DNA from: Syntrophobacter sp. SbD2
Lineage (GTDB): Bacteria > Desulfobacterota > Binatia > UBA9968
Assembly (NCBI GenBank): GCA_945889495.1
Contig: CAMDBU010000014.1
Span: forward strand, 1 to 61,140
Reading direction: 5' to 3'
DNA: 61,140 nucleotides
The position numbers and the translations under genes were made by a program. Numbering within the stretch: the stretch's first letter is position 1; the number at the start of each line of letters is the position of its first letter. The notes under the pieces were generated by a model. That model was not told the origin of the DNA. It did no database searches and worked only from the letters and a program-made list of their open reading frames with translations. Below, piece after piece: positions 6,509-54,919 of the stretch.

Positions 6509-9433
6509 ATGGCACTGGCGCCGGATAAGATCGAGCGGGAAGTGCAGCGGCTCGGCCGGGCGCTCTACCAGCGGGCGGCCGAGCATAAGCCGTCGTTGTT
6601 CGAAGCCCAGGACTTGCTCGGCCGGATGATCGACTGGTCGTTGGACGACGAATCGTTGCGCGTGGCGCTGTTTCGTTTCGTCGATGTGCTGCCGAGCTTG
6701 GAGTCGTCTTCTGAGATCGGCCGCCATCTCGAAGAATATTTCTCCCGGGTCGATCATGCCTTGAGTGGGTTAGCGATTCTCGCCCAGACGCTCCATGCCG
6801 GTACTTTGGTCGCGCCCATGGTGCGGCGCAACGTCATCAAGCTGGCGCGCCGTTTCATCGCTGAGGAGAGCGGCAACCACTTAACTTCGGTGCTCACGGC
6901 TTTGCGCAAGGAGCCGGCGGCGTTCACTATTGACGTTGTCGGCGAGGCGACGGTGAGCGATGGCGAAGCGGCGGCGATGCAAGGACGCTATCTCGCGCTC
7001 ATGGGCCGGCTCGCCGCGGCGAGCGCCAAGTGGCCCGACTGCCAGCAGATCGACGATTCGCCCAACGGCAAAATTCCCCGGGTCAATCTTTCGGTCAAAC
7101 TATCTTCGCTATGCGCCCGCTTCGATCCGTTGGACCCCAACACCGAAGTCATCGTGCGCCAGCGGCTGCGCGAATTATTTCGCGCCGCGTCATCGTTGGG
7201 CGCGGCGGTGACCGTCGACATGGAGCAGAACAGTTTTCGCGAGCTGACCCTGGAGATTTTTTGCGGCGTGTTGGAGGAGGACGAATTCCGCCAAGCGCCC
7301 TACGCGGCGATCGCATTGCAGGCGTACCTGATCGATGCGGCGAAAGATGTCGACGGCTTAGTTCGCTGGGCGCGACAGCAGCGCCGCCGAATCGGTGTGC
7401 GCTTGGTCAAAGGCGCCTACTGGGACAGCGAGATCGCCTGGGCCAAGCAAAAGAGCTGGCCGATTCCAGTGTTTCTCGACAAGGCGCAGACCGACGCCAA
7501 TTACGAGCAGCTGAGCCGCATGCTGCTCGAAGCCCATGATGTCATCGACGCCGCCTTCGGCAGCCACAATCTGCGCAGCCTGGCCCACGCCATCGTCGCC
7601 GCCAAGGAGATCGGCGTGCCGGCCAACGGCTACGAGATGCAAATGCTCTACGGCATGGCCGAACCGGTGCGCCAGACGATCATTCAAAACGGCCAGCGGG
7701 TGCGGGTTTACTTGCCGGCCGGCGAATTGCTGCCGGGGATTTCCTATTTGATTCGGCGGCTGATGGAGAACACCTCCAACACCTCGTTCTTGCGCCAGAC
7801 CTACGCCGACAAAAAAGACGTCGATAGCTTGATCAAAGCGCCGGTGCCAGCCAAATCGATTCCCTCAGCCAGCGTCGAGCGACAATTCGTCAACCAAGCG
7901 CCGATCGATTTCGCACCAACGGCGAACCGGGAGAAATTCGCCGCGGTAGTCGAACAAGTGCGCGGTGAATTCACCAGCAGCCGCAAACGCAGCGGCGAGT
8001 CGTGGATCGTGTCGGTGAATCCGGCCAACCCCAGTGAAGTCATTGGCCAAGTGCGGGTTTCCACGAGCACTGAAGCCGAACGAGCGATCGCCAAGGCCGA
8101 AGGTTTTTTTCCCGAGTGGCGTGGGACGCCGGCCCGGGAGCGCGCCGACATGCTTTTCAAAGCCGCCGAGATCATGCGCCAGCGGCGCTGGGAGTTGGCG
8201 GCGCAAGAGCTGTTCGAAGTCGGTAAGGGCTGGCGCGAGGCGGACGGCGATGTCTGCGAAGCGATCGATTATCTCGACTACTACGCCCACGAGATGCTGC
8301 GCTTGGCCGAACCGCGCGAGACTCAGCAGTTGCCGAGCGAAACCAATACGCACTTTTACGAGCCACGCGGCCTCGCCGCCGTGATCGCGCCGTGGAATTT
8401 CCCCCTGGCGATCCTCGCCGGCATGACCGCGGCGGCGTTGGTTACCGGCAACTGCGTGTTGATCAAACCGGCCGAACAGTCGCCGCTGATGGGCGCTTGC
8501 CTGCACGACATTCTGCGCCAAGCGGGCGTGCCCGACGACGCCTGCCAGCTGCTCCAGGGCGGCGGCGAGATTGGCGCGCAGTTGGTTCGCTCGGCGAAGA
8601 TTCATGTGATCGCGTTTACCGGCTCGCGGGAAGTCGGCTTGGAGATTCTCCGCGAAGCCTACACGACGCGGCCCGGACAGACTCACGTCAAGCGGGTGGT
8701 CTGTGAGATGGGCGGCAAGAACGCGGTGATCGTCGACAGCGATGCCGATCTCGACGAGGCAGTGGTGCATGTCATCGATTCGGCGTTTGGCTACCAAGGG
8801 CAGAAATGTTCAGCAGCCTCAAGGCTGATTCTCTTGGGCGAAATCCATGACCGTTTCCTGACGCGGCTGGTGGACGCCGTGCAGAGCTTGAAGATCGGTC
8901 CGCCGGAAGATCCGCGCAATGCCATTGGACCGGTGATCGATGCGGCGGCGCAACGGCGCATTGTTGACTACATTCGACTCGGCAAGAAGGAAGCCCAGTG
9001 CGTGGTTGAAATCGCCGCGCCCAAGGAGGGCTACTTCGTCGGCCCGGCGATCTTTCGCGATGTCGACCCGCGCAGCCGCATCGCCCAGGAAGAAATTTTT
9101 GGCCCCGTGCTGTCGGTGATCAAGGCCGATGATTTCGAGCAGGCCCTGCGGATCGCCAACGATTCCCAGTTCGCGCTCACCGGCGGCGTCTTCTCGCGCT
9201 CGCCCAATCATATCGAGCTAGCGCGCAAAGAATTTCGTGTCGGCAATCTCTATATCAACCGCGGCATCACCGGCGCCATCGTCGAACGCCAACCCTTCGG
9301 CGGTTTGAAACTCTCCGGCATCGGCAGCAAAGCCGGCGGGCCGGATTATCTATTGCAATTTCTCGAACCGCGGACGATTTCGGAAAACACCCTGCGCCAT
9401 GGGTTTGTTCCCCCGGAGCGGATGCGGAAATAG
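6509..9433 (+). CDS. putA: Bifunctional proline dehydrogenase / L-glutamate-gamma-semialdehyde dehydrogenase (PutA)
   Basis: This 974-residue enzyme oxidises proline to glutamate in two steps. The flavin-dependent proline dehydrogenase barrel spans about 110-440 (RRRIGVRLVKGAYWDSE and the R-R..ENTSNTSFLR substrate-binding segment). The NAD-dependent aldehyde dehydrogenase spans about 490-960 (PWNFPLAI near 627, Glu733 in CEMGGKNAVIV, catalytic Cys767 in GQKCSAASR, EEIFGPVLSV). There is no N-terminal ribbon-helix-helix DNA-binding domain, so unlike E. coli PutA it should not repress its own gene. It is preceded by about 180 bases of repeat DNA and has no strong ribosome-binding site. Confidence 0.96.
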   Translation: MALAPDKIEREVQRLGRALYQRAAEHKPSLFEAQDLLGRMIDWSLDDESLRVALFRFVDVLPSLESSSEIGRHLEEYFSRVDHALSGLAILAQTLHAGTLVAPMVRRNVIKLARRFIAEESGNHLTSVLTALRKEPAAFTIDVVGEATVSDGEAAAMQGRYLALMGRLAAASAKWPDCQQIDDSPNGKIPRVNLSVKLSSLCARFDPLDPNTEVIVRQRLRELFRAASSLGAAVTVDMEQNSFRELTLEIFCGVLEEDEFRQAPYAAIALQAYLIDAAKDVDGLVRWARQQRRRIGVRLVKGAYWDSEIAWAKQKSWPIPVFLDKAQTDANYEQLSRMLLEAHDVIDAAFGSHNLRSLAHAIVAAKEIGVPANGYEMQMLYGMAEPVRQTIIQNGQRVRVYLPAGELLPGISYLIRRLMENTSNTSFLRQTYADKKDVDSLIKAPVPAKSIPSASVERQFVNQAPIDFAPTANREKFAAVVEQVRGEFTSSRKRSGESWIVSVNPANPSEVIGQVRVSTSTEAERAIAKAEGFFPEWRGTPARERADMLFKAAEIMRQRRWELAAQELFEVGKGWREADGDVCEAIDYLDYYAHEMLRLAEPRETQQLPSETNTHFYEPRGLAAVIAPWNFPLAILAGMTAAALVTGNCVLIKPAEQSPLMGACLHDILRQAGVPDDACQLLQGGGEIGAQLVRSAKIHVIAFTGSREVGLEILREAYTTRPGQTHVKRVVCEMGGKNAVIVDSDADLDEAVVHVIDSAFGYQGQKCSAASRLILLGEIHDRFLTRLVDAVQSLKIGPPEDPRNAIGPVIDAAAQRRIVDYIRLGKKEAQCVVEIAAPKEGYFVGPAIFRDVDPRSRIAQEEIFGPVLSVIKADDFEQALRIANDSQFALTGGVFSRSPNHIELARKEFRVGNLYINRGITGAIVERQPFGGLKLSGIGSKAGGPDYLLQFLEPRTISENTLRHGFVPPERMRK

Positions 9434-9445
9434 GAAGAGAAGAAA

Positions 9446-9555
9446 TTATCTCGCAAAGGCGCAAAGACGCAAAGGGTAAGGAAGCTGGTTTCCGAATACT
9501 TAGCGCCTTGGCGCCCCTTCGACGTAGCTCAGGACATGCTTTGCGAGAGATAGTC
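9446..9555. repeat. CGCAAAGGCGC repeat with a CTTCGAC repeat nested in it
   Basis: ATCTCGCAAAGGCGCAAAGA at about 9448 starts one arm and CTTAGCGCCTTGGCGC (ending about 9514) begins the opposite arm, which resumes as CTTTGCGAGAGAT at 9539. Between them, 9515-9538 (CCCTTCGACGTAGCTCAGGA plus CATG) is a copy of the CTTCGAC/CTCAGGAC repeat. The second family has apparently inserted into the first. Confidence 0.7.
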
Positions 9556-9563
9556 CTAAAATC

Positions 9564-10532
9564 TTGAACGCAAAACCCTACATCGCGCCTTGGTGGCTGC
9601 CCGGCGGCAACGCGCAGACCATTTACGCCCGGGCGCTTGGGCGCAATTACAGCATCGAGTACCAGCGCCAGCGTTGGAACACGCCGGACGGGGATTTCAT
9701 CGATCTCGATTGGGTGAATCGTGAGAGCAAGACGGCGAAGCTGCTGGTGCTGTTCCACGGTCTCGAAGGCAGTTCGCGTAGCCATTACGCGCTGAGTTTG
9801 ATGACGCTCGCTCAACGGATCGGCTGGCGCGGCGTGGTGCCGCACTTTCGCGGTTGCGGCGGCGAGATCAACCGCCTGCCGCGCGCTTACCACTCCGGCG
9901 ACGCCGCCGAGATCGATTGGATCTTGCGCCGGCTCAAAAGCGAAAATCCCGATTGCGAAATCTACGTTGCCGGCGTTTCACTCGGCGGCAACATGCTGCT
10001 CAAATGGCTGGGTGAGCAGGCTGATGTAGCTACGACAGTTGTTAAAGGCGCGGTGGCGGTATCCGCGCCGGTGGACCTGCACGCCGCCGCGGCGGTGTTG
10101 GACTTTGGTTACCGCCGCGCGATTTACACAAGGCGCTTCTTGCGCTCGCTGCGAGCGAAGGTACTGGCGAAGATCGCAACGCATAAGTTAGATATTCCGA
10201 TCGAAGCCGTGCGCCGCTGTTCGACCTTGCGCCAGATCGACGATCTCTACACCGCGCCGATCAATGGCTTTAAAGACGCCGACGATTACTGGACCCGCGC
10301 CAGCAGTAAACCCTTGCTAACAAATATTCGCGTTCCGACCTTGCTGCTCAACGCGCGCAACGATCCGTTCCTGCCTGCCGATGCCCTGCCGGCGCAGAAA
10401 GAAGTTTCTGATGCCGTCACGCTGGAATTTCCCGTCTCAGGTGGCCATGTGGGATTCGTGGCTGGGAGTATGCCCGGTAATTTGGCCTGGCTACCGCAGC
10501 GAATTCTGAATCATTTCTCGGTTGGAATTTAG
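9564..10532 (+). CDS. YheT-type alpha/beta-fold hydrolase
   Basis: A 322-residue serine hydrolase of the YheT group. It starts with the family opening WWLPGGNAQTIYA, has the HG oxyanion segment LFHGLEGSSRSHY, the nucleophile elbow GVSLGGN, the acid in LLNARNDPF and the catalytic His in SGGHVGF. Physiological substrates of YheT proteins are poorly defined; esterase activity is the usual assumption. The start is a TTG at 9564 with no convincing ribosome-binding site, and no upstream ATG exists in frame before the repeat, so the exact start is uncertain. Confidence 0.9.
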   Translation: MNAKPYIAPWWLPGGNAQTIYARALGRNYSIEYQRQRWNTPDGDFIDLDWVNRESKTAKLLVLFHGLEGSSRSHYALSLMTLAQRIGWRGVVPHFRGCGGEINRLPRAYHSGDAAEIDWILRRLKSENPDCEIYVAGVSLGGNMLLKWLGEQADVATTVVKGAVAVSAPVDLHAAAAVLDFGYRRAIYTRRFLRSLRAKVLAKIATHKLDIPIEAVRRCSTLRQIDDLYTAPINGFKDADDYWTRASSKPLLTNIRVPTLLLNARNDPFLPADALPAQKEVSDAVTLEFPVSGGHVGFVAGSMPGNLAWLPQRILNHFSVGI

Positions 10533-29703: not shown

Positions 29704-30990
<1,287 letters not shown>

Positions 30991-31376: not shown

Positions 31377-31955
31377 ATGTCCGCTGTCAAGAAATTTATC
31401 GAATCCGCGCGCAAGCTTCACGCCGAAGAAGAAGACGCGGCCAAGCGTTGGGAGAAAATGACGCCGCTGTTGCAAGAGCTGATCGCCGATCCGGCGGTGC
31501 GCGAACAGTCGCGCCATTGGCCCGATTGCTCGCAGGGCGGCGAGCGCGCTGAGAATTTACTATTCTACGAAGACCCAGATTATAAATTCGTCATCAACGG
31601 CTTGATCAAGGCGCCGCACACGCGCACTTCCGTCCACGACCACGCGCATAACTGGACGCTCTACGGCGTGCTCGACGGTTCGGAGTCGATCGAACGTTAC
31701 GACCGTCTCGACGACGGCGCGAAACCGGACTACGCCCAAGTGCGCAAGTCGGTGAACGTCAAAGTCGGCGCTGGCAAGATCGATTTGGTGCCGCCCTTTG
31801 CGATTCACGCCGAGGAGAGCGGCGACGAGCGCACGGTGGCGATCATCGTGCGCGCCGAGAAGGCCGGCGGCTTTCTCCAGGGACGCTACGACCCGGAGAC
31901 CAACAAATATTGGCAGGGTTATGGCCCCAAGCAGTTGCCCTTCGAGCTCAAATGA
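31377..31955 (+). CDS. Cupin protein, cysteine-dioxygenase-like
   Basis: 192 residues with a cupin metal site: VHDHAHNWTLYGVLDGSESIERY (His-x-His, then Tyr/Gly segment) and a later IHAEESGDERT His. This resembles the thiol dioxygenase/CDO-type cupins and 2,4'-type dioxygenase-like cupins; no substrate is certain. GGAGG at 31367-31371 places the start at the ATG 31377. It opens an operon with an asparaginase-like gene and nitrile hydratase-type genes; a thiol-dioxygenase role would connect it to sulfur compounds, but this is inference. Confidence 0.78.
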   Translation: MSAVKKFIESARKLHAEEEDAAKRWEKMTPLLQELIADPAVREQSRHWPDCSQGGERAENLLFYEDPDYKFVINGLIKAPHTRTSVHDHAHNWTLYGVLDGSESIERYDRLDDGAKPDYAQVRKSVNVKVGAGKIDLVPPFAIHAEESGDERTVAIIVRAEKAGGFLQGRYDPETNKYWQGYGPKQLPFELK

Positions 31956-31991
31956 TTTCGTTGTCGCTCATTTCACTGACGCGAGTTCACG

Positions 31992-33707
31992 ATGGCTGAT
32001 ACCGGCAGCGCGGCGAAACCGCGCATCGCGGTGTTTTCCGGGCCGACGGCGACGATTCAAAACAGCGAGCCGTTGGTGACCAGCAACAAGGCGCGGGAGA
32101 AGTACGGCCAGCCGAATCGCCTGCACAAAGACGGCTCGCCGATGCGTTTCGATGTTTTGCGCGCGCAACGGTTAGCGGCGCCGGTGACGATCTACGTCGA
32201 GCAGTTTAGCGCCCACCCGCTGGAACGCGATCACGCCGAGCTTTACGCGCCGCCGGATGGTTATCTCGACGCCGCCGGGGTGTTTCACAAAGAGCGCACC
32301 AGCGCGGCAGACAAAGCGGTCTACGAAATTATTCTTCGGCCCGAAGATGGCCTTTATCCGCTGCCCTACATGGCGCGCCAGGCCAACGGCCAGCCCTGGG
32401 AGATGGACGGTACGGATAAAAACGTCGCGGCGGAGAAAGTGCGCGTGCCGTTCTTTCCCGACGGCTCGCGTTTGTTCGAAGAGATCGACCGTCTGGGGAT
32501 TTCTGACCAAGGCGTCGGCTGCCTGCTGACGGCTAAAGCGGAGTTCGATTTTTACCGCGCCTTACCGTCCGGTGGCTACACCAAAGGGCGGCGCGAGAGC
32601 GAACGCACCGATATCGGCTCCGGCGACATCGCGCCGGAGAGCCGCGGCGACGACTTTTTCCCCTATCGTCCGGGTTATCTGCGCAAGGAGCCGCCCATGG
32701 CGGCGTTGGCGCGGTTGACCAATATCGTTCAACAGGCGCTCGCCAGCGGCAAATACGCCGGCGGCATCTGGCTCGAAGGCAGCCCCTTCGTCGAAGAGAC
32801 GATTTACTGGTTGAATCTGTTGATCGATACCAAGGTGCCTGTCGTCGGCAATTCCTCGCAGCGCGCCCATGGCGCCATCGGCAACGACGGCGACCGCAAT
32901 ATTGTCGATTCCGTCGACTACATCACATCGAGGATTTGGGCCGATGAGCAGGGCCGGGACTTTGTCGGCGCGGTGGCGATCCTCGACGAGCAGATTTTTA
33001 CTTCCCGCGACGTGCAAAAAGCCGACGCCCGCCCCGGCGGTTATATCGCCACTGGCGGCCATGGCGGCATCATCGGCCGCATGGGCCATCCCGGCGCGCC
33101 GCAGTTTTCTTTCAAGCCGATCAAGCGCCACACGCACACTTCTCTAGTCAATTTCTCGCAGTTGCCGGCGACCGTTCAAGGCTCGCGGATTCAAGGTTCA
33201 ACCATCGGGACTATCGGCGTACCGGTAAAAAATGGCGCCGGTGAATTGCTCGGCTCGGCGATTCCCAAAGTGGTGATCGTCAAACATGCGCGCTATTTGC
33301 CCGAAGACACTTCTGGCGATGCCAGTAGCGAAGTCGATATTCTCGCGCGCATTGAAAACAATCTGCGTATGGCGCCGCTGGCCGGTTTCGTCGCCGAGGG
33401 CTCGGCGCCATTTGGCGCCATGAGCAATGGCGTCGATGCGGCGCTCAAGCGCGCGACTTTCAGCGGCATGCCGGTGGTCAAAGTCGGCCGCGGCAACGCC
33501 GGCGGTTTTGTCGATGCGACGCGCGATCCGCTCGCCATCGCCGGCAGTAATCTGACCGCGACCAAGGCGCGGCTGTTGTTAATGGCCGGTTTGCTCAAGT
33601 TCGGCTGCCTGCCGCCGGCCGCCGATGCGGCCAAACCGACGCCGGCGGAAAACGACGCGACCAAAGCCAAGTTAAAATTGTACCAAGAGATTTTTGATAG
33701 CCATTAG
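31992..33707 (+). CDS. Asparaginase/glutaminase-like amidohydrolase (long form)
   Basis: 571 residues, longer than ordinary asparaginases (about 330). An N-terminal region with IAVFSGPTATIQNSEPLVTSN leads to a central region whose NSSQRAHGAIGNDGDRNIVDSV matches the conserved asparaginase segment around the S-D-G motif, and a C-terminal domain with GMPVVKVGRGNAGG. The classic TGGTIA nucleophile motif is not obvious; SGPTATI may be its equivalent. It probably hydrolyses an amide. Position right before the nitrile hydratase genes suggests it takes the amide they make. Confidence 0.72.
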   Translation: MADTGSAAKPRIAVFSGPTATIQNSEPLVTSNKAREKYGQPNRLHKDGSPMRFDVLRAQRLAAPVTIYVEQFSAHPLERDHAELYAPPDGYLDAAGVFHKERTSAADKAVYEIILRPEDGLYPLPYMARQANGQPWEMDGTDKNVAAEKVRVPFFPDGSRLFEEIDRLGISDQGVGCLLTAKAEFDFYRALPSGGYTKGRRESERTDIGSGDIAPESRGDDFFPYRPGYLRKEPPMAALARLTNIVQQALASGKYAGGIWLEGSPFVEETIYWLNLLIDTKVPVVGNSSQRAHGAIGNDGDRNIVDSVDYITSRIWADEQGRDFVGAVAILDEQIFTSRDVQKADARPGGYIATGGHGGIIGRMGHPGAPQFSFKPIKRHTHTSLVNFSQLPATVQGSRIQGSTIGTIGVPVKNGAGELLGSAIPKVVIVKHARYLPEDTSGDASSEVDILARIENNLRMAPLAGFVAEGSAPFGAMSNGVDAALKRATFSGMPVVKVGRGNAGGFVDATRDPLAIAGSNLTATKARLLLMAGLLKFGCLPPAADAAKPTPAENDATKAKLKLYQEIFDSH

Positions 33708-33725
33708 CGGCGAGAGGAATTTTCG

Positions 33726-34799
33726 ATGTCGGGAAAACATGGACATAAACCGTTCGAAGGCCATATGCATGACTACATGGCGCATATCAAAGCCGTCGAA
33801 GAGGATCTGGAATACTACCGCGCCAAGCGCTTCGAGCCGCGGATTTTCTATTTACTGCGGCGCAACGTGGTGACCTTCTACGATCTGCTCAAAGTACGCG
33901 CGGCGCTTAAAAAGAAAGATCATTTTTTCCAATTCGCCAAGCCGCAGGGCAAAAACATTGAGGCGCGGGTGCGCTATTTAGAGGAGTGGCTCGACGAATA
34001 CGTCAAGGGCATCGCCCTGGTATCGGCGCGCACCGTCGAAGGCATGGACATGGTCACCGAGGACAACCGCAAGGAGCGCGGCGACTACGATGAATTTTTC
34101 AAGATCAAAAAGAAAGAGCACCAGGGCACGCTCGAAGAGCGCATGGCCAACTTGCAGCAGGATTTAACCGACTATTCCGAGTTATTGGAAGTCTTTGTCC
34201 AAGCTTTGATGCGGCGCGGTTGGGCGACGCGCGAAGATTTAACCCAGCGCTGGAAGCAGTTGCACGACGAGCGGGCCTGGGCCGGCGGCGTGATCGTCGC
34301 CAAGGCCTGGAGCGATCCCGAGTTTAAACAAGCGTTACTCGCCACCGGCCGCGAGGCGCTGCGCGAAATGGGCGTGCACCAGGGCAAGGTCGGCAAATTG
34401 GTGGTGGTCGAGAACACCGAGCAGACCCACAACGTCATCGTTTGCACGTTATGCTCCTGCTATCCCTACGATATCCTCGGCGACACACCCTGGTGGTACA
34501 AGCATGAGAGTTACCGCACCAACATCGTGCAAAACCCGCGCGCCTGCGTGAAGGAGCTGTTCCAGCTCGAACTGCCGAGCGACAAAGAGCTGCGGGTGTG
34601 GGATAGCACTTCGGATGTGCGCTACTTCGTTTTGCCCCAGCGGCCCGCCGGCACCGAGGGGATGGCGGAGCCGGAGTTGGCCAAACTGGTCACCGTCGAT
34701 AGTCTGATCGGCGCCGGCTACGCTCTGGAGCCGGGGCAGTTGCGCGAGCGCGAAGCGGCTCACGGCGAAGCGGAGATGCCGCGAGTGCGGCCAGATTGA
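33726..34799 (+). CDS. Nitrile hydratase-type protein: beta-N-like domain fused to alpha subunit
   Basis: 357 residues. Residues about 1-130 are helical and resemble the N-terminal domain of nitrile hydratase beta (FEPRIFYLLRRNVV, ARVRYLEEWLDEYV). Residues about 150-340 are the alpha subunit, with the metal-binding claw VCTLCSCYP, WWYKHESYR, LPSDKELRVWDSTSDVRYFVLPQRP and VTVDSLIGAG. Thr in VCTLCSC is the cobalt-type signature. Thiocyanate hydrolase uses the same metal site and splits beta into two chains, so it is an alternative. The fusion of a beta-N-like part to alpha is unusual. It is followed eight bases later by the matching beta-C gene. Confidence 0.8.
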   Translation: MSGKHGHKPFEGHMHDYMAHIKAVEEDLEYYRAKRFEPRIFYLLRRNVVTFYDLLKVRAALKKKDHFFQFAKPQGKNIEARVRYLEEWLDEYVKGIALVSARTVEGMDMVTEDNRKERGDYDEFFKIKKKEHQGTLEERMANLQQDLTDYSELLEVFVQALMRRGWATREDLTQRWKQLHDERAWAGGVIVAKAWSDPEFKQALLATGREALREMGVHQGKVGKLVVVENTEQTHNVIVCTLCSCYPYDILGDTPWWYKHESYRTNIVQNPRACVKELFQLELPSDKELRVWDSTSDVRYFVLPQRPAGTEGMAEPELAKLVTVDSLIGAGYALEPGQLREREAAHGEAEMPRVRPD

Positions 34800-34807
34800 G
34801 CAATGCT

Positions 34808-35089
34808 ATGAGCGAGACGACGGGCAAATACAAAATCGGCGACGCGGTCATGGTCGCGGTGGAAAATCCCAAGGGCAATCCGCGCACGCCAAAATATATC
34901 CGCGGCAAGCGCGGCGTGGTGGCGCTCGCCCATGGCCGGCTGGAAAACGCCCGCGATCATCGCGGCATCCATGATCCGCTCTACACGGTCAAATTCGACT
35001 TGACCGAGCTGTCGGCTTGCCACGATAGCGATACGATTTGGGTCGACGTCCATGAAGAGTGGTTGCGCGAGGTCGAACGGGATAGTTGA
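34808..35089 (+). CDS. Nitrile hydratase beta, C-terminal (SH3-like) domain only
   Basis: 93 residues matching the SH3-like C-terminal half of nitrile hydratase beta: YKIGDAVMVAVENP, RTPKYIRGKRGVV, HGRLENARDHRG, PLYTVKFDL and IWVDVHEEWL. Complete beta subunits have about 200-230 residues with a helical N-terminal half; that half seems to be fused to the preceding alpha. ATG at 34808 is preferred over a TTG at 34796. Together the two genes would give a full alpha-beta unit. Confidence 0.82.
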   Translation: MSETTGKYKIGDAVMVAVENPKGNPRTPKYIRGKRGVVALAHGRLENARDHRGIHDPLYTVKFDLTELSACHDSDTIWVDVHEEWLREVERDS

Positions 35090-35172
35090 GCGAAGTGGCC
35101 AAACCGTTCCCGTGCCGAGCTCGAAGCGAACAAAAATCAGCAATCGATCACAAGGAAAGTAGATTAACCGCT

Positions 35173-36138
35173 ATGGCAGATTTAACTTTAACGATGGCGC
35201 TGTCGCATTATGACCGGCATATGCCGCTCTTCGATGGTTCGGTGACCGCCGAGGGCGTCGATTTACAAGTGCTCGAGGTCGGTCAATCCCATCCGCTCAA
35301 GCATGGCCAAGATCGCCATGAGCGGATGCTGCAAAAGAGCGAGTTCGACATTTGCGAGCTGTCGCTGTCTTCCTATCTGATCGCCAAGAGCCGCGGTATG
35401 CCGTTCACGGCGATCCCGGTGTTTCCGCGCCGCTTGTTCAGCTTGTCGCAGATGTGGGTCAATGTGAACGCCGGCATCAAGACGCCCAAGGATCTGGTCG
35501 GCAAGAAGGTCGGCTTGAGCACTTTTCAAACTACTTTGTCAGTGTTGGCCAAGGGCGACTTGCAGTCTGAGTACAACGTGCCCTGGCGCGATATTGACTG
35601 GTACATTTCCAAGGACGAGGCGGTGCCGCTAAAGCCCCTGGCTGGGGTCAAAATGCAGCTACTCAAGAAAGGCCAAAAGATCGGCGCCATGTTGGCGGCG
35701 GGCGAGATCGACGCGCTGATGGTGCCGCACCCGCCGGAAGAAGCGCTGCGCGGCGGCGGGTCGGTGCGCCGGTTGTTCGCCGATCCCAAGGCTGAAGAGG
35801 CGAGCTATTTTCGCAAAAATGGTTACTTCCCGATCATGCATGTGGTGGCGTTCAAAGACGAAGTGCTAAACAAAAATCCCTGGCTCGCCAAATCCATCAC
35901 CGGCGCCTTCGACCGCGCCAAGGCGGCCTGTCTGGAATACTACGACGATCCCAACTGGTCGCGCTTTGTCTGGGGGCGCCATCTGTTCGAGGAAGAGCGC
36001 GCCGCCTTCGGCGACGATCCCTGGCCCCATGGCATCGCTAAGAATCGCGCCAATCTGGAGCGCTTCGTCGGCTATTCCCTCGATCAGGGCTTGATGGAGA
36101 AGCGGCTCACGGTGGAAGAACTGTTTTTCGAAAAGTAA
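35173..36138 (+). CDS. 4,5-dihydroxyphthalate decarboxylase-like / binding-fold protein
   Basis: 321 residues, [64 protein letters not shown] and [10 protein letters not shown]. This pattern is annotated as 4,5-dihydroxyphthalate decarboxylase (Pht5-like) and has the type-2 periplasmic binding fold. No signal peptide, so a cytoplasmic enzyme or a leaderless binding protein are both possible. A second homologue is at 53927. It ends the nitrile hydratase operon. Confidence 0.8.
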
Positions 36139-53926: not shown

Positions 53927-54919
53927 TCAGATTTTGAACTCTCCCACCACATTGGGGGCGAAGATTTCTTCGACGGTGACTTTGCGGGCGAGCAGACCCT
54001 GGTCGCCCATGTAGCGGATTAAATTTTCCAGCAGGTGGCGGTTGGTTTCGACACCGTAAGGCCACCAGTCGGGGCCGAAGATTTCGCGCATCTGTTCGCG
54101 TTCCCAGGGCAGCCAGGGGAGCGTGCAGGCCATGGTGTTCGATATGTGCATGTTCTTGATCGCCAGGTCTTTGGCTTCGCAGAAGGCTTTGTACAGGCTG
54201 CGGGCGATCCATTGGTTTTTTTCGTAGACTTCTTTTTTGATCACCAGCACATGCATGATCGGAAAGATTTTTGTCCGCTTATAATAATCGATCTCGACGT
54301 CCTTGTAGTTGGGGAACAAGCGCTTCACCTTGGGGTTGCCTTTGACGAAGGATGACGGCGCCCGTGCCGAGATCAACACGTCGATCTCGCCGCTCTCCAA
54401 CATTCCATTTAAAGTCTTGTCGTCGGCGATGGGATCGAGTTTGATCTCCGGCGGTAGGGTGAGTTTCACCCGCTCTTTTCTGCCGGCTTCTTCCTGGCCG
54501 CCGGTGAACCAGTGCATGTCGGCGGTCTTGACGCCGTAGTCGTCGGCGAGAAAGCCGCGAATCCACACGGCGGCGGTGATCGAGTACTCGGGCGCGCCGA
54601 CTTTTTTGCCTTTGAAGTCCGCCGCGGTCTTGATGCCCGAGTCGGTGTTGATGAAGACGCAGGAGTGGCGGAAATAGCGCGACGGGAAAATTGGGACGGC
54701 GACGAAGGGCGAATTGCCGCGGCTGATCATGGTGACATGATTGGACAAGGACATTTCCGAGACATCGAACTCCTGATGATGGCCCATGCGCCAGAAAATC
54801 TCTTCGGCCTCCAGCGGCACATAGTTGATACGAATGCCCTCGGCCTGCACGTCGCCGGTGCGCAGCGCCATGGTGCGGTCGTAGTTGCCGCAGCCGACGG
54901 TCAAAAATAATTTCTCCAC
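53927..54919 (-). CDS. 4,5-dihydroxyphthalate decarboxylase-like / binding-fold protein
   Basis: 330 residues, homologous to 35173-36138: LTVGCGNYDRTMAL, FDVSEMSLSNHVTMISRG, FPSRYFRHSCVFINTDSGI, DVLISARAPSSF and IFPIMHVLVIK. No signal peptide. The start is a GTG at 54919 supported by AGAAGGAGA just upstream. It follows an iron-type permease gene, so it may serve as a second binding component or as a metabolic enzyme. Confidence 0.82.
   Translation of the reverse strand: MEKLFLTVGCGNYDRTMALRTGDVQAEGIRINYVPLEAEEIFWRMGHHQEFDVSEMSLSNHVTMISRGNSPFVAVPIFPSRYFRHSCVFINTDSGIKTAADFKGKKVGAPEYSITAAVWIRGFLADDYGVKTADMHWFTGGQEEAGRKERVKLTLPPEIKLDPIADDKTLNGMLESGEIDVLISARAPSSFVKGNPKVKRLFPNYKDVEIDYYKRTKIFPIMHVLVIKKEVYEKNQWIARSLYKAFCEAKDLAIKNMHISNTMACTLPWLPWEREQMREIFGPDWWPYGVETNRHLLENLIRYMGDQGLLARKVTVEEIFAPNVVGEFKI

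Follow-up and report, generated by a model that had tools for sequence, protein, structure and literature searches.

A conserved variant of the nitrile hydratase superfamily with a helical domain ahead of the alpha core and the beta C-terminal domain as a separate protein

Cobalt-type nitrile hydratases (NHases) and thiocyanate hydrolases (SCNases, with alpha, beta and gamma subunits) are close relatives of the locus analysed here, a five-gene stretch at positions 31377-36138 of a 61,140-nucleotide DNA from the soil bacterium Syntrophobacter sp. SbD2 (the whole of which we call the window), where one protein (FUS) carries a helical domain in front of an NHase alpha core and is followed by the C-terminal domain of the NHase beta subunit (beta-C) as a protein of its own (BC). 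In SCNase the beta parts are separate chains. The layouts given in the available part of PMC7193024 are the two-gene NHase orders, the SCNase gene order, the eukaryotic beta-alpha fusion and the solo subunit, and the FUS-BC layout is not among them; narrow literature searches found no description of it, and the available part of the Binatota paper PMC8262859 nowhere mentions 'nitrile'. The FUS-BC pair shares with Co-type NHase the alpha core, the motif CTLCSC and a beta-C domain with arginines, but has at its own locus neither a recognised beta N-terminal domain (beta-N) nor an adjacent activator; moreover, the alpha protein has an extra N-terminal domain, beta-C is a separate 97-residue protein, and the score of FUS does not reach the NCBI equivalog cut-off. 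With SCNase it has in common the alpha-type metal subunit, whereas FUS attains only about half of the equivalog bits, no beta-N-type chain occurs on the FUS contigs of 14 genomes of the window's class, and FUS stands apart from the one SCNase row compared. Three-chain betaN-betaC-alpha sets (L049, and L110 with a similar split) have the same divided beta and stand-alone beta-C, but in L049 the beta-N gene is genuine (PF21006, 5.5e-21) and the alpha, at 268.3 bits, lies above the NHase cut-off, while L110 was compared by alignment only. As far as the available part of PMC3323583 goes, eukaryotic beta-alpha fusion NHases likewise have a domain fused ahead of alpha, although there the whole beta is fused, whereas in FUS the fused domain cannot be recognised as beta, and beta-C is a protein of its own; the same part of this 2012 paper states that fusion genes were absent from prokaryotic datasets. 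Solo-subunit NHases also depart from the two-subunit rule (PMC7193024, available part), a likeness taken from their description.

The five open reading frames (ORFs) of the locus lie on the same strand with metK and ahcY upstream; gaps of 36 bp and 18 bp separate the cysteine-dioxygenase (CDO)-like gene from the asparaginase-like gene (ASN) and ASN from FUS, and FUS and BC overlap by 4 bp. The features are as follows.

29722-30990, + strand: ahcY (S-adenosylhomocysteine hydrolase, by Pfam), a frequent upstream neighbour of FUS.
31377-31955, + strand: CDO-like cupin (thiol-dioxygenase superfamily); best PDB match 8vni, His89/91/146 retained; the ATG at 31377 agrees with the starts in relatives.
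31992-33707, + strand: ASN, asparaginase-fold amidohydrolase-like protein of 571 residues, with a long insertion near the N-terminus and the Thr-Asp pair changed to Ser-Pro.
33726-34799, + strand: FUS, N-terminal helical domain plus Co-type NHase alpha core, 357 residues (Pfam NHase_alpha).
33765-33911, + strand: repeat r1, FUS residues 14-62, a diverged copy of the FUS alpha arm (hhalign).
34062-34100, + strand: motif D-x-R-x-E-R-G-D-Y-x-x-x-F, FUS residues 113-125 (conservation in alignment A9).
34119-34265, + strand: r3, the alpha arm, FUS residues 132-180, similar to the beta-N arm helix (hhalign).
34284-34715, + strand: NHase alpha core, FUS residues 187-330 (Pfam, PDB, alignment, AF2 fold match).
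34443-34460, + strand: metal-binding motif CTLCSC of FUS (alignment).
34796-35089, + strand: BC, stand-alone NHase beta-C domain, 97 residues (PF02211, 7.1e-15).
35086-36138, + strand: 4,5-dihydroxyphthalate-decarboxylase-like or NMT1-type protein of the binding-fold kind (PDB 9jp7), probable start ATG 35173.

The original prediction had described this locus as a cobalt-type VCTLCSC alpha subunit with a beta-N-like domain in front and a beta-C gene behind, next to an asparaginase-like enzyme, a CDO-like cupin and a binding-fold protein. Most of this is borne out: Pfam recognises NHase_alpha on FUS residues 155-330 (1.8e-62) and NHase_beta_C on BC, the three neighbours were matched to the families named, and the domain split is indeed unlike that of classical NHase, though not as a beta-N/alpha fusion.

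Comparison of the alpha cores evidences both the kinship of FUS with NHase and its distinctness. CTLCSC is present in 13/13 FUS rows of the class, in 21/21 other alpha rows and in all 15 FUS rows of A9, and most residues common to the 21 other alphas are retained in FUS. In addition, D253 and W256 occur in 13/13 class FUS and 0/21 other alphas, with T254 between them at a site where 20/21 other alphas have proline; the FUS rows from Actinomycetota keep W256 and have proline at position 254. The alpha core of the AF2 model matches NHase alpha chains with Z of about 25 and SCNase gamma with about 23, and a PDB search with FUS gave 196 bits to NHase alpha as compared to 125 bits to SCNase gamma. 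On the NHase alpha equivalog TIGR01323 (cut-off 249.85) FUS obtains 204.4 bits, and other FUS proteins lie equally below the cut-off (L120 207.6, L121 191.0, L040 200.1), whereas the classical alpha (291.9) and the three-chain alpha (268.3) of the window's own genome both pass; on the SCNase gamma equivalog TIGR03887 it obtains 147.1 bits, the cut-off being 291.45 and the control, Roseomonas scnC, reaching 359.2. The phylogeny with NHase and SCNase that the original prediction had proposed set 17 FUS rows against 21 NHase/SCNase rows on a branch with support of 100/100 (38 alpha-domain rows, SCNase being represented by a single one). From these comparisons L025 was dropped for an in-frame stop in its FUS; L036 and L030, whose FUS is cut at the C-terminus or frameshifted, were excluded from the trees, from the 13-row residue comparison and from A9, L042 and L043 were further excluded from alignment A10, and L104, a duplicate of L022, was left out of the trees. 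Judged from its sequence, FUS is an NHase-family protein of the cobalt type whose alpha domains form a clade of their own, the metal being predicted to be cobalt.

A distinct picture resulted from the analysis of the front domain. The claim that it is beta-N-like did not hold, as it failed the beta-N tests that a true beta-N and an activator of the same genome pass: in a Pfam scan at max_evalue 10, a setting at which the HMMER filters still discard most matches above about 0.1, PF21006 (beta-N) had no match in FUS residues 1-150, while it recognised the true beta-N (5.5e-21) and the activator (5.7e-10), nor had it any in four more front domains (L040, L044, L046, L047). An hhalign comparison with a profile of eight beta-N and two activator sequences gave 3.4%, and a PDB search with the front-domain profile returned no match below E 0.38. 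Identification of the front domain as beta-N was thus rejected by Pfam with working positive controls, by hhalign and by the PDB profile search; a likeness seen by eye of the RxERGDY segment to DExRRxR in beta-N was also unsupported (hhalign 0.18%). The Pfam matches that the front domain does have are weak, of coiled-coil type and under their own cut-offs (GreA_GreB_N, 0.0025). The AF2 model of FUS is confident in the alpha core alone and that of ASN has a mean pLDDT of 32.9, and because of this low confidence neither was used for folds beyond the alpha core; pdb_via matches lying mostly in the low-confidence part of FUS (Z up to 5.5) were disregarded.

What the front domain does contain is a diverged repeat of the alpha arm of FUS itself. 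In the two-phylum alignment, hhalign aligns r1 with r3 at a score of 31.0 (probability 88%), the best of 167 control windows from real proteins reaching 14.8 against r1 and 21.9 against r3. With 14 sequences the score is 23.8, whereas the best of 199 windows taken from other families of proteins in these genomes attained 15.6, and it was reached by 0/100 column shuffles, a lenient control in which shuffling destroys the helix periodicity. The r3 arm in turn resembles the beta-N arm helix (34 columns of an 18-row beta-N profile, score 33-34, probability 85-90%), and therefore the alpha arm and the beta-N arm are alike, while r1 compares with beta-N at control level only (18.9 versus 19.8). The motif D-x-R-x-E-R-G-D-Y-x-x-x-F is identical across all 15 FUS rows of A9, which span two phyla, and RxERGDY is by eye also present in L036, L125 and L126. 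The front-domain residues invariant in the same rows, those of the motif included, are H13, D16, H20, A23, V24, D27, E29, Y30, R32, K34, R35, E37, R39, R45 and R46 in the stretch 13-46, and D53, R83, E86, L89, D90, D113, R115, E117, R118, G119, D120, Y121 and F125 in the stretch 53-125. A simple count of substitutions between the window and genome G001 gives dN/dS of 0.054/0.991 (ratio 0.054) for FUS and 0.033/0.621 (ratio 0.053) for the front domain alone, which has a lower dN than the whole protein and the same ratio of about 0.05; purifying selection acts on both alike. The corresponding values are 0.142/1.083 for BC, 0.097/0.914 for ASN, 0.059/0.62 for CDO and 0.025/0.652 for ahcY. On this sequence evidence, the front domain is a helical domain that holds a diverged repeat of the protein's own alpha arm together with the RxERGDY motif. 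A second FUS front domain, lacking RxERGDY, was observed at L047 899-1726 (G023:C26) in one ORF with an IspG (GcpE) tail, and may be a misassembly or a broken paralogue.

We have also analysed how FUS and its neighbours are distributed. The front-domain model matches 14/148 genomes of the window's class and 1/395 in a sample of its phylum, the latter being the window's own genome; in the phylum that includes the Acidimicrobiaceae locus L031 it matches 2/296, and in Pseudomonadota, to which the Polynucleobacter locus L033 belongs, 0/398, a sample that holds no known positive and so shows nothing by itself. Gene-order searches around those two Actinomycetota loci gave 3/36 and 1/16, overlapping with the 2/296, which makes four Actinomycetota genomes with FUS in all, their phylum being assigned by way of the named anchor locus. 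When named genomes were scanned by pattern, 10 loci were obtained, seven with FUS, all from metagenome-assembled genomes (six Deltaproteobacteria and one Verrucomicrobia by deposited name), and the front domain was confirmed on none of the viral contigs and found on none of the plasmids searched. FUS is followed by BC at 14/14 class loci (with one intervening gene in L044) and accompanied by it at 3/4 Actinomycetota loci, adjacent in L121, a contig of only 3.25 kb, and in L126, and two genes away in L120, the contig of L125 stopping within FUS. CDO is in the cluster at 12/14 class loci (the contig of L042 stops in ASN, and L044 is without CDO) and ASN at 11/14 (exceptions L038, L040 and L044), and ahcY is upstream at 9/14; contig ends truncate L042 and L045, and L039, L043 (1.0 kb visible) and L044 have no ahcY upstream. 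Chance as the origin of the gene order, a possibility set for testing beforehand, is refuted by these counts for FUS-BC, CDO and ASN. Of the five-gene order itself FUS-BC, CDO and ASN recur, while the binding-fold gene is next to BC at this locus alone (0/13 other class loci). Because BC stays with FUS across phyla and CDO and ASN are seen with it in this class only, FUS-BC is the unit and the remaining genes are regional. Within PRTPKYIRGK of BC, R30 and R36 do not vary across 13 rows, and the protein does not reach the NCBI cut-off for whole beta (46.8 of 152.2). FUS-BC is a real and conserved variant of the NHase superfamily.

The explanation that we prefer, and to which we give about an even chance, is that FUS and BC would form a two-chain, cobalt-dependent enzyme of the NHase superfamily in which the front domain stands in place of beta-N. 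The domains, the repeat, the conservation, the separate clade and the linkage of the genes come directly from the data, and the metal, the assembly of FUS with BC, the replacement of beta-N, the chemistry and the substrate are all matters that we infer. The alpha core would bind Co(III) through C-T-L-C-S-C and BC would cover it, as beta-C does in NHase, while the front domain would take the beta-N side, wrapping the core, closing the pocket and supplying one or more arginines to hold the oxidised cysteines, and it may in addition perform the job of the missing activator. We take betaArg56 of NHase to be located in beta-N. The arginine role is proposed because betaArg56 variants of NHase are inactive (PMC7193024, available part) and the activator P14K has no arginine corresponding to betaArg56 (PMC4709657, available part). 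Such an enzyme would hydrate or hydrolyse a triple bond, probably in a non-classical substrate, and in the window's class the CDO-like and ASN proteins may often act alongside, perhaps on a sulfur-containing product. More tentatively still, and in our view somewhat doubtful as a whole, FUS-BC could be a further branch of the superfamily beside NHase and SCNase, a two-chain Co(III) enzyme in which a domain made partly of duplicated alpha arms replaced beta-N, much of the classical pocket and the beta-N-like activator, with a new substrate fed in this class to thiol-dioxygenase-like and asparaginase-like enzymes downstream of the S-adenosylhomocysteine hydrolase. If true, a conserved natural enzyme without beta-N would reveal what beta-N truly contributes, would allow the structural function of beta-N to be told apart from that of the activator, and could offer another kind of pocket for a chemistry in industrial use; in any case, FUS-BC is a testable protein family from uncultured bacteria.

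Several observations weigh against the preferred explanation. R266, invariant in 21/21 other alphas, is kept in 6/13 FUS and lost in 7/13, and over FUS residues 1-110 the pLDDT of the AF2 model is 23-42, unusable, so that no structure places the front domain at the beta-N site. A second partial copy of the arm, r2 (residues ~76-95), is borderline, scoring 22.3 against 21.9 for the best control, and L126, outside A9, differs by eye at front-domain H20 and E29 while keeping RxERGDY. Only BC is universal, some class loci being without CDO or ASN, and neither was seen in the Actinomycetota FUS loci, that of L121 being the short contig noted above; among the family-scanned neighbours of FUS no cobalt transporter or activator was identified. 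Moreover, in 13/14 class FUS genomes a beta-N encoded elsewhere could act in trans.

This last point is the basis of a different explanation, in which FUS-BC would be an ordinary NHase that borrows beta-N (or an activator) from other NHase sets encoded in the genome, while the front domain would serve only as an extension for localisation or oligomerisation. PF21006 has 22 matches in those 13 genomes, the window's genome has two NHase sets, one of the classical alpha-beta-activator kind and one of three chains, and the alpha arm that would contact beta-N is retained in FUS. None of the matches lies on a FUS contig of the 14 class genomes. G017 has FUS and no match anywhere, which argues against borrowing but is not conclusive as this genome is 90% complete; further, constraint on the front domain equals that on FUS as a whole, and its motif is preserved over two phyla, and altogether we consider borrowing unlikely. 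The absence of PF21006 matches from the FUS contigs also means that no activator gene is recognised near FUS-BC, which would agree with the front domain being itself a fused activator or metallochaperone that loads cobalt and aids cysteine oxidation, with no structural role in the stead of beta-N. Activators are beta-like and linked to cysteine oxidation (PMC7193024 and PMC4709657, available parts), and the front domain has N-terminal histidines; nevertheless, PF21006 recognises the activator of the same genome and not the front domain, and we regard this as quite unlikely. As to the NHase sets themselves, the classical Co-type alpha-beta pair of the window's genome, with the activator gene behind, is at L048 ~7278-9634 (contig C27), and the three-chain set at L049 8207-9435 (contig C58) encodes betaN (103 residues), betaC (101) and alpha (205). 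A split-beta NHase was also noted on a Polymorphobacter plasmid (L110 2576-3905), its two beta parts being annotated merely as SH3-like.

The two activities offered in the original prediction, on thiocyanate and on nitriles, each retain part of their support. Thiocyanate hydrolase has a beta that is likewise split into parts. An SCNase-like FUS-BC would turn SCN- into COS and NH3 while the CDO-like protein took part in sulfur handling, and the sulfur-related cupin does adjoin in 12/14 class loci, while the fold match barely separates NHase from SCNase (Z 25 versus 23). However, FUS reaches about half of the SCNase equivalog cut-off that Roseomonas scnC passes, the PDB bits favour NHase alpha, the tree does not group FUS with scnC, its one SCNase row, and the three Actinomycetota loci with flanks have no CDO, which makes this reading very unlikely. 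In the nitrile pathway FUS-BC would convert nitrile to amide and ASN would convert amide to acid and ammonia, CDO being peripheral. ASN adjoins FUS in 11/14 class loci and retains a T12-like Thr in 19/19 rows covering that region and a K162-like Lys in 21/21. The positions T12, T89-D90 and K162 follow the numbering of E. coli asparaginase, and in type II asparaginase the T89-D90 pair and K162 are catalytic. On the other hand, T89 is replaced by Ser in 20/20 rows and D90 by Pro in 18/19 and Ser in 1/19 (L037 has a 12-residue gap in the D90 region), and because the Thr-Asp pair is replaced L-asparagine is an unlikely substrate. Furthermore, ASN occurs in 27/148 class genomes (E<=1e-30) as compared to 14 with FUS, including genomes without FUS, while G008, G013 and G019 have FUS and no ASN match. 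The linkage of ASN thus stands, while the loss of the pair and the uncoupled occurrence leave the pathway possible but weak, and as an account of FUS-BC distinctly unlikely.

Regarding the partner proteins, ASN matches Pfam Asparaginase at 2e-09 and does not reach the type II asparaginase family TIGR00520 (48.9 of 314.3 bits). The best PDB match of the CDO-like cupin is mercaptosuccinate dioxygenase (8vni, 2.6e-08), and its three iron-binding histidines (His89/91/146) are present in 18/19 rows, L089 having Pro at the third. Cysteine dioxygenase has a Ser-His-Tyr triad. The segment that HMMER aligns to this triad reads A-[IVL]-[IV]-[VI]-R in 19/19 rows, which does not correspond to it. CDO homologues, paralogues included, occur in 40/148 class genomes (E<=1e-10), and in relatives that lack FUS, CDO, ASN and a VOC-like protein occupy, in differing combinations, the place after ahcY. 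The VOC-like protein is a conserved two-domain protein of ~290 residues at or near that place, often in loci lacking FUS or CDO (L040 4649-5527, L090 5776-6663, L091, L092, L093, L099, L100 and L046), and Pfam recognition of it is marginal; the VOC-like neighbour c12 gave no informative family. The binding-fold protein matches Pfam NMT1 at 8.7e-05 and 4,5-dihydroxyphthalate decarboxylase in the PDB (9jp7, 7.8e-53), and has a paralogue in the window at 53927-54919 on the - strand. Finally, homologues of topoisomerase VI A and B lie near FUS-BC in three genomes, at L041 4141-7277, L042 4267-7414 and L045 5029-8168, the families having been scanned in L041 and assigned by clustering in the other two.

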